Positions 13,930 to 36,295 of a DNA stretch of 64,000 nucleotides are shown in pieces (within the stretch, counting starts at the first letter, position 1; each line of letters begins with the position of its first letter). The stretch is from Halanaerobiales bacterium. GTDB taxonomy: Bacteria > Bacillota > Halanaerobiia > Halanaerobiales > DTU029. Both the position numbers and the translations under genes were made by a program. Under the pieces are notes generated by a model that was not told the origin of the DNA, searched no databases, and saw nothing but the letters and a program-made list of their open reading frames with translations. The stretch covers positions 62,001 to 126,000 of the forward strand of contig JARRCS010000011.1 in NCBI GenBank assembly GCA_029981855.1. The letters are read 5' to 3'.

Positions 13930-14136
13930 TTGAGTCGAAATAACCATATATTAAATCCTTTAGCCAGAGACGCTCTTGACAGGTTCAAGTATGAAGTTGC
14001 CAGCGAACTGGGTCTTATAGATAAGATTAATACTCGCGGGTGGGGAGATATGACTACCCGTGAAGTAGGAAAGATTGGTGGTAACATGGTCAAGAAGATG
14101 ATCAAAATGGCTGAGGATAATATGGTTAATCAATAG
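13930..14136 (+). CDS. Alpha/beta-type small acid-soluble spore protein 1
   Basis: 68 aa with a TTG start (13930) preceded by AGGAGGTGAAAG. NPLARDALDRFKYEVASELG and WGDMTTREVGKIGGNMVKKM are the two conserved SASP blocks. The protein coats spore DNA in the A-form and protects it; GPR would cut it in EVASE during germination. A possible sigma-G promoter (GAGTATA ... CATATTTA) lies about 80 bp upstream. Independent of the adjacent minus-strand holA and comEC. Confidence 0.93.
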   Translation: MSRNNHILNPLARDALDRFKYEVASELGLIDKINTRGWGDMTTREVGKIGGNMVKKMIKMAEDNMVNQ

Positions 14137-32288: not shown

Positions 32289-32313
32289 ACAAGCCCCCAG
32301 AATGGGGGCTTGT
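32289..32313. terminator. tRNA-Arg terminator
   Basis: ACAAGCCCCC-AGAAT-GGGGGCTTGT hairpin followed by TTATT, 42 bp after the tRNA. May also serve the minus-strand small gene that ends at 32317. Confidence 0.7.
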
Positions 32314-32316
32314 TTA

Positions 32317-32550
32317 TTAAGTATCAATATCCAAGATCAAAGTATCTAAGCTATTATTATCATAGTATTCATCTATATTTTCAACTGACTTCTCGTACTC
32401 CTGAGGATCAACCGTTTTCCCTGCTCCTACATCAGAGCCAAATGAAGATATAACGTTATATATGCCAGCAGTAAAGCCAATTATATAAAATAATTTTTGC
32501 TCATGGGTTAGCTTAAGCCAGTCAGACCATCCCACAGATACTATAATCAC
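32317..32550 (-). CDS. Hypothetical protein, probably truncated
   Basis: A 77-codon frame with a GTG start, no ribosome site and a stop just four codons upstream. The sequence (GWSDWLKLTHEQKLFYIIGF, then IYNVISSFGSDV, ending acidic) resembles the body of small exported proteins that normally carry a signal peptide; none is present here. It follows the RiPP-type ABC exporter gene and may be the remnant of a longer gene. Function unknown. Confidence 0.45.
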   Translation of the reverse strand: MIIVSVGWSDWLKLTHEQKLFYIIGFTAGIYNVISSFGSDVGAGKTVDPQEYEKSVENIDEYYDNNSLDTLILDIDT

Positions 32551-32645
32551 TTTTTGCCGTACTTAAACAAAAACCCCTGTTTAATGGGATTAAGAAGAAA
32601 ACTCAATTTACGGGGATGGTTTTTCAACCGACAAGGACTCTTAAC

Positions 32646-34385
32646 TCATGCTTCTATGTCATATAATCTCCGGTACAACCCTCTTTTTACCATGAGTTCC
32701 TTATGGCGCCCTTCCTCTACAATCAGGCCGTCTTCCAAAATAAATATCCGGTCAACACCGGAGATATTGTGTAGATTGTGTGAGACATGAATAACCGTAC
32801 ATTCGGGAATTTCTTTAGCGATATTATGTATAATGCGGGCGGCTGTTATATTATCCAATGCCGAGGTCACTTCATCGAGTAACAATAGTTTCGGATGGCG
32901 TAAAATCGCCCTGGCCAGACCAATTCGCTGCCTTTCTCCAGCGGAAAGTCTTACTCCGTTCTCCCCGACTTGCGTAGCCAATCCCCGGGGTAATTTAGCA
33001 ATAACCGATTCAATCTCCGCCAGACGTACGGCCCTTTTCAACTCTTCGTTTTTCGCCCCCGGATTCCCGAATCTTATGTTCTCTTCCAATGTTCCGTCGA
33101 AAAGGAAATTATTCTGAAAGACAATACCGGTAATCTCGCGTACCGCTCCAATACTCTTACGGTCAAGCTTCAAGCCGCCGACTATGATCTCACCGGCTTG
33201 AGGAGAGTAAAACCCGGCTATAAGTTTTAAAATACTGCTTTTCCCGGCTCCGCTTTTACCCACAAACGCCACTTTCTCTCCTGCCTTCACAGTAAAAGTT
33301 ATGTCTCGTAAAACATACTGTTCCCGGTCATAAGCGAAAAAGACCCCCCGGAAAGAGACTGTCGCGTCCATAACATGCATAGAAACTGGATTTTTGCTCT
33401 CCAGTTGAATGGGTTCCCTAAGTATTTCGTTTATCCTACCGACGGAGACCATTACCCGTTGCAAATCCTGATACAACCCGATAAATTGCAACATCGGAGT
33501 GACAATTAACCCGTTATACATCATAACTGCCGCCAATCCCCCTACACTCAACGAACCCCCGGCCACAAGTAGGCCACCGTAAATTATAACACCCGCTATA
33601 ATACTCATTAACAGAGAACCCCCGGCCGACTTGGTTATAGCTAAATATGCCGCTTCTTTCAATGATATAGCCTTCACTCTTTCGCTCCAGAAATTAACTT
33701 CCCCACAGAATCTCACCTGCTGCCCGTTTACCTGGATATCACGCATACCTCTAATTCCTTCCGTATACAGTGACCAGAGCCGGCCGACCGTACTTCGAAC
33801 CTCTGCTGCATACCGGCGTAAACGGAGTCCGGTTTTAGCCGTAAAAACCACGGTGATTGCTCCCAGGAGCAGAATCAGGACGGTCAGCCTCCGGTCTATA
33901 CTCAACATGAAATACACTCCGAAAAAGAAAGAAACCATTGATTTTGAGAGAAATATGATCGGTCTTAAAAAACCGCCTACGGCAACTTGCGTATCCTCCA
34001 CCATACGGGCCATAAGTTCTCCAGACTGCAAGCGCTCCAATACGGATTGGGAAACACCGGATAAATGAGAAAAAACCTTACAACGAATATCATACACCAA
34101 AGTTGCTTCGGCCTTTCTGTGACAGAATGTCAATAACCCCTGAATAATATTATTCAAAAGATGCAATCCCAAAAAGACAAGTCCGGTATAAGTGATAGCT
34201 CCAATCCCACCTTCCAAGCTTCCCGTTGCCAGATCGATAGTCCGGGCCAGGAGCTTAACCGGGTAAGTTGTGAAAAAACCGCAGGCGGCCAATAAAAGAA
34301 TCAACATCACAGTCAATTGCCGATGTTCCATGAAAAATCGCGGGAAATCAATCCTTTCGAACCAAATTCGTTCTCTCCTCTTCAT
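32646..34385 (-). CDS. ABC transporter, fused membrane and ATPase domains (peptide exporter candidate)
   Basis: A 579-aa half transporter: six membrane helices in residues 1-310, ATPase domain with Walker A GKSGAGKSS, Q-loop VFQNNFLFDGTLEEN, signature RLSAGERQR, Walker B LLLLDE and switch His HVSH. No C39 peptidase domain is present, so leader removal would need another protease. GGAGGAGAA precedes the ATG. It lies after the precursor gene on the same strand, which suggests export of the modified peptide; lipid or drug export is possible. Confidence 0.85.
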   Translation of the reverse strand: MKRRERIWFERIDFPRFFMEHRQLTVMLILLLAACGFFTTYPVKLLARTIDLATGSLEGGIGAITYTGLVFLGLHLLNNIIQGLLTFCHRKAEATLVYDIRCKVFSHLSGVSQSVLERLQSGELMARMVEDTQVAVGGFLRPIIFLSKSMVSFFFGVYFMLSIDRRLTVLILLLGAITVVFTAKTGLRLRRYAAEVRSTVGRLWSLYTEGIRGMRDIQVNGQQVRFCGEVNFWSERVKAISLKEAAYLAITKSAGGSLLMSIIAGVIIYGGLLVAGGSLSVGGLAAVMMYNGLIVTPMLQFIGLYQDLQRVMVSVGRINEILREPIQLESKNPVSMHVMDATVSFRGVFFAYDREQYVLRDITFTVKAGEKVAFVGKSGAGKSSILKLIAGFYSPQAGEIIVGGLKLDRKSIGAVREITGIVFQNNFLFDGTLEENIRFGNPGAKNEELKRAVRLAEIESVIAKLPRGLATQVGENGVRLSAGERQRIGLARAILRHPKLLLLDEVTSALDNITAARIIHNIAKEIPECTVIHVSHNLHNISGVDRIFILEDGLIVEEGRHKELMVKRGLYRRLYDIEA

Positions 34386-34528
34386 TTCTCCTCCTGTTTT
34401 TCCGGAGACAGATATCGTCTTCTCCTTTTGCTCCGTGTTTTTAATCGGGACTGGAGTCGAAGCGTCTTCACCGCCGGTTCCGGTTTTTTAAAAACATGGG
34501 GGGACAGGTTGTTGGGTTCAGCAGGCCA

Positions 34529-34554
34529 GAATAAGCCGGACCCCCGGCTTATTC
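34529..34554 (-). terminator. Hairpin between precursor gene and exporter
   Basis: GAATAAGCCGG/CCGGCTTATTC, 11 bp perfect stem with a 4-nt loop, 7 nt after the precursor stop. No T-run follows, so it may protect the 3' end of a processed precursor mRNA or partly attenuate transcription into the exporter gene. Confidence 0.65.
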
Positions 34555-34561
34555 AGTATAA

Positions 34562-34738
34562 TCAGTTAGGCGGCAGTCCGCCGGGGCCGTAACAGTCACA
34601 CGGAGTTACATAAAAAAGGTCACCGCAGTCGCATTGATTCATATCCCGCCAACTGCTGCAGGTCGGATCAATTGCGATATATGAAATATCAGATTTCCTG
34701 TCGGTCAGCGGTATTATATGCATGGTCACTCCATCCAC
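34562..34738 (-). CDS. Candidate RiPP precursor peptide with CxC repeats
   Basis: 58 codons, GTG start at 34738 with AAAGGAGG 8 nt upstream. The N-terminal part (residues 1-24, VDGVTMHIIPLTDRKSDISY then IAID) has no Cys; the C-terminal part has Cys at 27, 36, 38, 47 and 49, twice in the form CDC, and ends GPGGLPPN. It lies 45 bp after the radical SAM/SPASM maturase gene and before the exporter gene. Leader/core division and thioether crosslinking are inferred; no known precursor family was recognised. It could be an ordinary Cys-rich small protein, but the context makes this less likely. Confidence 0.75.
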   Translation of the reverse strand: MDGVTMHIIPLTDRKSDISYIAIDPTCSSWRDMNQCDCGDLFYVTPCDCYGPGGLPPN

Positions 34739-34783
34739 CTTATACTCCTCCTTTCAAGATAATCCCGTCCCCCCCAAACAAGA

Positions 34784-36223
34784 TCAATCATATAATCCGT
34801 GAAAATAAAACTCCTGACTCAAGATCTTCTCCCGTAGCTCCTTCTCTGGTAACTTGCTTATTCTGGAATAGAGCCAAATTGCCCATTCCAGCCGTTTTTT
34901 TCTGACCACGCACCGTCTCTCCACCGCCTTTTCCCTCCCGTAGACGAGGAGGGATTCCGCGGGACAGTCGCCAGCGCAGACATGCCGCGCCCAGCACCGC
35001 CCGCATCCCTCTTTGGCCATGACGTTTAGCGGATGATAATTCTTGAGATTGGACGCGATATTTTCCGTAAATACCGAACCCAACCTATACTCATCCAAAC
35101 CGACCAGACGGTGACAGGGATAAATGTCGCCCTCCGCCGAGACCGTCATCATGGAAGTTCCCATTCCGCAGGGAAAGAAACGAAGTTCGTGATTATCCAG
35201 TTTTCTCATTTCCGCAAAAACATTTCGAAACTCCACATATTCTTGGTGCTTGATTCTCTCCCAAACCTTTTCAATCAGAGCACCGTACTGCCGGTTAAAC
35301 TCCTGAAGCATCTCCTTTTCCAACAGTTCATCTTCCCTCCATTTAAAGGGACCGAACGAAGCCGCTTCCAAATGATAAAACTTGAATCCCAATTCGGTAA
35401 AGTGCGCATCGATGGACTCCAGATCTAAATTATACGGTGTAACGGTGCACCTGCACCCCACATTAATTTCTTCACCGGATAGTAGATCATCCAAATGAGC
35501 GGCTATCACGCGGTAAGAACCCTCACCGCTGGCCAACGGTCTTTGGGCGTCATGCATGGACGGCGGGCCGTCAAGACTTATAACCACGGAGAAACCGTTT
35601 TCTTTAAAAAAACTAATAATTTCGCTGTTTAAAAGAGTTCCGTTGGTAGTAATTCCGAACCGCAATTTTTTTCCATAATCGGCTGCCAGCTTTTTTCCGT
35701 ATACGACGAGGTGTTTTAATAATTGATAGTTCAGTAAAGGTTCTCCGCCGAAGAAAGTCAGGTGACATGTTTTGCTTCTCCCTGATTTCCTGAGTAATAA
35801 CTCTACACTTGCCTCTCCCGTCCGTATATCCATTAATTTGCCGGGTGTATTATACAAGCCATGATCGGCATAACAATACACACACCTCATATTGCATTCC
35901 TGCGAGATATTAAGAACCAGGGAGGTGAGAGGAAGGTCTCTCCCCTGACTCGCGCAGGCGTTCCGATACTCAATACAGTCTTCATCCCCGTTTAGCAGCA
36001 CCCCTTCTTCAACCAATGCGGAGAAGGCTTTTTTCAGTTCGGTGCGATCATATATCCCGGCTAAACTTTTTTCTACCCCGGTCCATGTTAAAGGTTCCGG
36101 TAAAGAGAGTATGCTTTCTGTCAAATCATCGATTTCATAGACCCTCAACGTCCTAACCTCAAGCAAGAATCTAACGCCCTTCACGGAAAAAAGATGCGTC
36201 TCCCGTTTATGATAACTCTCCAT
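34784..36223 (-). CDS. Radical SAM/SPASM peptide maturase
   Basis: A 479-aa protein. Residues 10-80 look like a winged-helix peptide-recognition element (HLFSVKGVRFLLEVRTLRV); the radical SAM cluster is at Cys110, 114 and 117 (ISQECNMRCVYCYADHG) with FFGGEP at about 158-162; the SPASM domain has the full pattern FFPCGMG ... GDIYPC ... CGRCWARHVCAGDC ... RRC for two auxiliary clusters. Close to SCIFF/QhpD-type maturases that make thioether bonds. ATG follows AGGGGGGAGAAA. Downstream: precursor and exporter. Confidence 0.88.
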   Translation of the reverse strand: MESYHKRETHLFSVKGVRFLLEVRTLRVYEIDDLTESILSLPEPLTWTGVEKSLAGIYDRTELKKAFSALVEEGVLLNGDEDCIEYRNACASQGRDLPLTSLVLNISQECNMRCVYCYADHGLYNTPGKLMDIRTGEASVELLLRKSGRSKTCHLTFFGGEPLLNYQLLKHLVVYGKKLAADYGKKLRFGITTNGTLLNSEIISFFKENGFSVVISLDGPPSMHDAQRPLASGEGSYRVIAAHLDDLLSGEEINVGCRCTVTPYNLDLESIDAHFTELGFKFYHLEAASFGPFKWREDELLEKEMLQEFNRQYGALIEKVWERIKHQEYVEFRNVFAEMRKLDNHELRFFPCGMGTSMMTVSAEGDIYPCHRLVGLDEYRLGSVFTENIASNLKNYHPLNVMAKEGCGRCWARHVCAGDCPAESLLVYGREKAVERRCVVRKKRLEWAIWLYSRISKLPEKELREKILSQEFYFHGLYD

Positions 36224-36295
36224 TTTCTCCCCCCTGTCTTTATTGAAGTCGCAAAACCTTAAAACCGCAATAGCCGTTTTTGCTGCAATGCTGTT

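Follow-up and report, generated by a model that had tools for sequence, protein, structure and literature searches.

Does the radical SAM/SPASM enzyme encoded near the middle of this 64 000 nt stretch of DNA (the window) modify the short Cys-rich peptide encoded beside it and, if so, to what kind of system does the peptide belong? An earlier note had proposed a RiPP-like cassette of maturase, precursor and exporter, and this is still the best reading of the locus. The cassette is probably a ranthipeptide-type RiPP system, in which a leader docks onto the maturase, Cys-to-Asp thioethers are formed and the peptide is exported. This type is the most likely because the maturase can be aligned with CteB from one end to the other and lies in the neighbourhood of the SCIFF, PapB, QhpD and nif11 maturases.

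Organization of the locus

Three intact genes lie on the minus strand in the transcription order maturase (36223 to 34784), peptide ORF (34738 to 34562) and exporter (34385 to 32646), with gaps of 45 nt between maturase and peptide and 176 nt between peptide and exporter. The open frames, common strand and gene order are as the earlier note described them. The GC content of the three genes is similar to that of the adjoining genes. The features of the region are:

34784..36223, minus strand: radical SAM/SPASM peptide maturase, 479 aa (Pfam and NCBIfam; CteB alignment; invariant Cys residues)
34747..34753, minus strand: ribosome-binding site AAGGAGG, with an 8 nt spacer to the GTG (sequence)
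34562..34738, minus strand: putative precursor peptide, 58 codons, GTG start, five Cys, Asp-rich core (sequence; no family match)
34529..34554, minus strand: 11 bp perfect stem–loop just 3' of the precursor stop, no T-run (RNA fold −18.6 kcal/mol; z only −1.29 against shuffles)
32646..34385, minus strand: ABC exporter, 579 aa, membrane and ATPase domains (PF00664 and PF00005 matches)
32572..32591, minus strand: possible intrinsic terminator 3' of the exporter gene (pattern scan only; 7 such sites in the region against 4.2 expected by chance)

The position of the precursor 3' of its maturase had been called unusual, which is an overstatement: qhpC lies directly downstream of the QhpD gene in four annotated operons, so the order of maturase then substrate has a precedent. 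As the stem–loop at 34529..34554 lacks a T-run, it is read as perhaps stabilizing the mRNA or attenuating transcription. Upstream, only 72 nt (36224–36295) separate an alpha-L-rhamnosidase gene from the maturase gene, and a scan found no terminator in this gap; the cassette may therefore be co-transcribed with a sugar-uptake operon.

Beyond the exporter, a 77 aa ORF on the minus strand (32317–32550), with no NCBIfam match and no Pfam match above cut-off, may be a separate small gene; its end directly precedes a GC-rich stem–loop at about 32291–32310. Elsewhere in the window, three short ORFs with GGAGG sites, at 13930 and 14264 on the plus strand and 27774 on the minus strand, resemble alpha/beta-type small acid-soluble spore proteins, which suggests that the host may be a spore former.

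The maturase and its relatives

The CX3CX2C motif of the maturase is formed by C110, C114 and C117, and seven SPASM Cys residues are present (C352, C370, C407, C410, C416, C420 and C438). None of the ten varies among the 22 homologues aligned, which bears out the complete SPASM set previously claimed. The best relative of solved structure is CteB (PDB 5wgg), to which residues 9–452 align at E 1e-65. This alignment places the N-terminal region of the maturase on the leader-binding (RRE-type) region of CteB. The N-terminal domain of CteB binds the leader.

The best single NCBIfam family score was with the nif11-like maturase model TIGR04064 (305.2 bits, cut-off 518.7), followed by PapB NF047865 (291.5 bits, cut-off 340), SCIFF TIGR03974 (280.9 bits, cut-off 425) and QhpD TIGR03906 (275.2 bits, cut-off 453). 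Since each score falls below its cut-off, the maturase is assigned to none of these families. The RumMC sactipeptide maturase model gave 103 bits, far under all four. In a first tree, the maturase groups with QhpD and a PapB-type enzyme (97/97); in a second, with more families added, it is placed weakly beside SCIFF (83/31). By sequence the maturase lies among the SCIFF, PapB, QhpD and nif11 maturases, on a branch that is unstable because the two trees disagree.

In the 398 phylum genomes searched, the closest maturases found show about 36 % identity and are parts of other systems, and most of the top-scoring ones adjoin six-Cys SCIFF peptides. The maturase is matched at E 1e-45 in 305 of the 398 genomes, and most of those matches that were read are SCIFF maturases; a second phylum search with a different centre returned the same genomes. 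There is no counterpart at E 1e-20 in the genome's own family, and in its own class (59 genomes) only two other genomes encode a maturase of the group at E 1e-35, both distant (30–31 % identity). No match to the maturase was found in viral contigs. A scan of the whole collection gave only five distant loci, among which L003, L006 and, judged by its neighbouring genes, L004 look like anaerobic sulfatase maturases.

The putative precursor and its proposed modification

The 58-codon ORF encodes the peptide VDGVTMHIIPLTDRKSDISYIAIDPTCSSWRDMNQCDCGDLFYVTPCDCYGPGGLPPN, in which all five Cys residues lie within the C-terminal 32 residues. The GTG start, the strong ribosome site and the five core Cys agree with the earlier description of this gene. 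The accompanying statement that it is below the usual gene-calling length is wrong, as 58 codons exceeds the Prodigal limit of about 30 codons. Translation could begin at the GTG or at an ATG at codon 6 (34723), since the latter has a GGAG of its own five bases upstream.

In a ranthipeptide-type pathway, the 58 aa peptide would be translated, and its N-terminal part, to about D24, would act as a leader that docks onto the N-terminal domain of the maturase. The radical SAM enzyme would then link Cys sulphurs to a side-chain carbon of nearby Asp residues, and our best guess is Cys-to-Asp S–C(beta) cross-links. Candidate links are C27–D32, C36 and C38 with D37/D40, and C47–D48, whereas C49 is followed by no acidic residue. 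Export would then take place through the ABC exporter, and an unlinked protease would cut off the leader, giving a product that may be a bacteriocin or a signal. The PapB, SCIFF and QhpD maturases form thioethers between sulphur and a non-alpha carbon (PMC8172795), and PapB is reported to accept Cys-Xn-Asp with n = 0–6 (PMC9413430). This spacing rule covers four of the five Cys in the peptide, a fit that is not proof, as the rule is permissive.

The peptide could be a true substrate that carries links of another kind, either sulphur to alpha-carbon, as in sactipeptides, or Cys to the gamma position of Thr or another residue, as in SCIFF. The weak association with SCIFF in the second tree is consistent with this, as are the Thr residues T26 and T45 of the core, given that SCIFF-type links use Thr (PMC10352776). 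However, the top-scoring characterized relatives of the maturase include enzymes that use Asp or Glu, Asp is found near four of the five core Cys and the sactipeptide model scores far lower, so that such links are rather unlikely.

Coding potential of the short reading frame

Chance occurrence of the ORF was assessed with dinucleotide shuffles (n=5000) of the 398 nt intergene. ORFs of at least 50 codons are common (1973 of 5000 shuffles), so length alone means little; an ORF of at least 50 codons that also has GGAGG in place and at least five Cys is rare (2 of 5000). Beside the maturase there is no second short ORF that is both Cys-rich and preceded by a GGAGG site.

The claim that no precursor family matches the peptide held in wider searches: nothing matched in NCBIfam or Pfam with E values up to 1, and searches of 299 relatives, the 398 phylum genomes, plasmids and viral contigs yielded no convincing relative. 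Matches at E 0.02–1 in the 398 genomes were rejected as chance level, being short and in several cases running through stop codons, and a distant DNA search of plasmids returned just a 103-base piece. As no peptide relative was found, none of its residues is supported by conservation. This is what would be expected if the ORF were an unrelated small gene or a chance frame, with the substrate of the maturase encoded elsewhere in the genome. This explanation is nevertheless improbable, given the location of the ORF between maturase and exporter, the rarity of its combined features in the shuffles and the lack of any competing frame beside the maturase.

Exporter and proposed leader removal

A C39 peptidase domain (PF03412) is absent from the exporter and has no match anywhere in the genome, so the double-glycine, C39 type of processing was not found here. 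No leader protease is encoded within the cassette. The exporter is only 24–35 % identical to the other exporters compared and the cassette was found in one genome of its class, as might be seen if the exporter served another function and the cassette were a remnant or a decaying acquisition; the three frames are, however, intact, with no stops, and have a GC content like that of adjoining genes, which makes this very improbable. Almost no credence is given to the idea that the peptide is not secreted but serves, like QhpC, as the small subunit of a quinone enzyme: gene order and ABC exporter are as in qhp operons and the maturase falls with QhpD in one tree, but genes for an alpha or beta subunit, for a QhpE protease and for a QhpG oxygenase are all missing from the adjoining DNA, similarity to QhpC is not beyond chance (p 0.70–0.82, shuffled pairwise scores) and the peptide has 58 residues against about 108.

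Comparison with known systems

The ranthipeptide-type reading can be set beside four known systems. PapA/PapB (freyrasin) likewise combines a radical SAM/SPASM maturase with core Cys residues that have an Asp within 0–6 residues, but the six regular CX3D repeats are missing from the present peptide, and in the PapB-type loci that were read the short ORF precedes the maturase gene, whereas here it follows it. Two such loci, on Anaerococcus and Paraclostridium plasmids, contain a maturase, ABC genes and a short Cys/Asp-rich ORF. The Paraclostridium enzyme, the only one of the two scored, is above the cut-off of the PapB model (389.7 bits), and the Anaerococcus enzyme is classed as PapB-type from its position on the same branch. 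The Paraclostridium ORF (CP124692.1, 311–427, minus strand) is unannotated and encodes 38 aa, MLKLKNQINEKQAVRAKGCGGWDGNCIFCDGGKWDFNS, which share CIFCDG with the Anaerococcus peptide. The PapB-family maturase gene downstream of this ORF is likewise unannotated and runs across the start point of the record.

The QhpD/QhpC/QhpF system resembles the cassette in its gene order and in having an efflux ABC transporter, encoded by qhpF (PMC7876137); unlike in that system, genes for dehydrogenase subunits, a subtilisin and a flavoprotein oxygenase are all absent from the present locus. Similarity to SCIFF/CteB/ScfB (thermocellin type) is seen in the full-length CteB alignment and in 31–36 % identity to maturases that adjoin six-Cys SCIFF peptides. 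The peptide differs in lacking the SCQSACKTSC signature and in having five Cys, and the substrate gene is downstream and accompanied by an exporter gene of its own. As with QhpC, similarity of the peptide to SCIFF peptides is at chance level in shuffled pairwise scores. A likeness between the leader and those of SCIFF and QhpC (MHIIPL compared with MKHIKTL or MKHLKPI) was not significant by shuffled pairwise scores or a position matrix and so is not used as evidence. The nif11-like system (TIGR04064, NlpM) gives the top family score of the maturase, but the peptide has no Nif11-type leader (no Nif11 match) and is only 58 aa long.

We tentatively raise the possibility of a separate maturase lineage between PapB, QhpD and SCIFF, with a new precursor family in which paired CDC motifs carry nested Cys–Asp cross-links unlike those of described ranthipeptides. 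The kind of system is already known and well described; what is plausibly new is the orphan precursor and the divergent maturase. If so, both would be added to the group of thioether-forming enzymes used for peptide cyclization, and the class would gain such a maturase where no other was found at high similarity. The cassette is a useful example of a system that searches with family models place only loosely.
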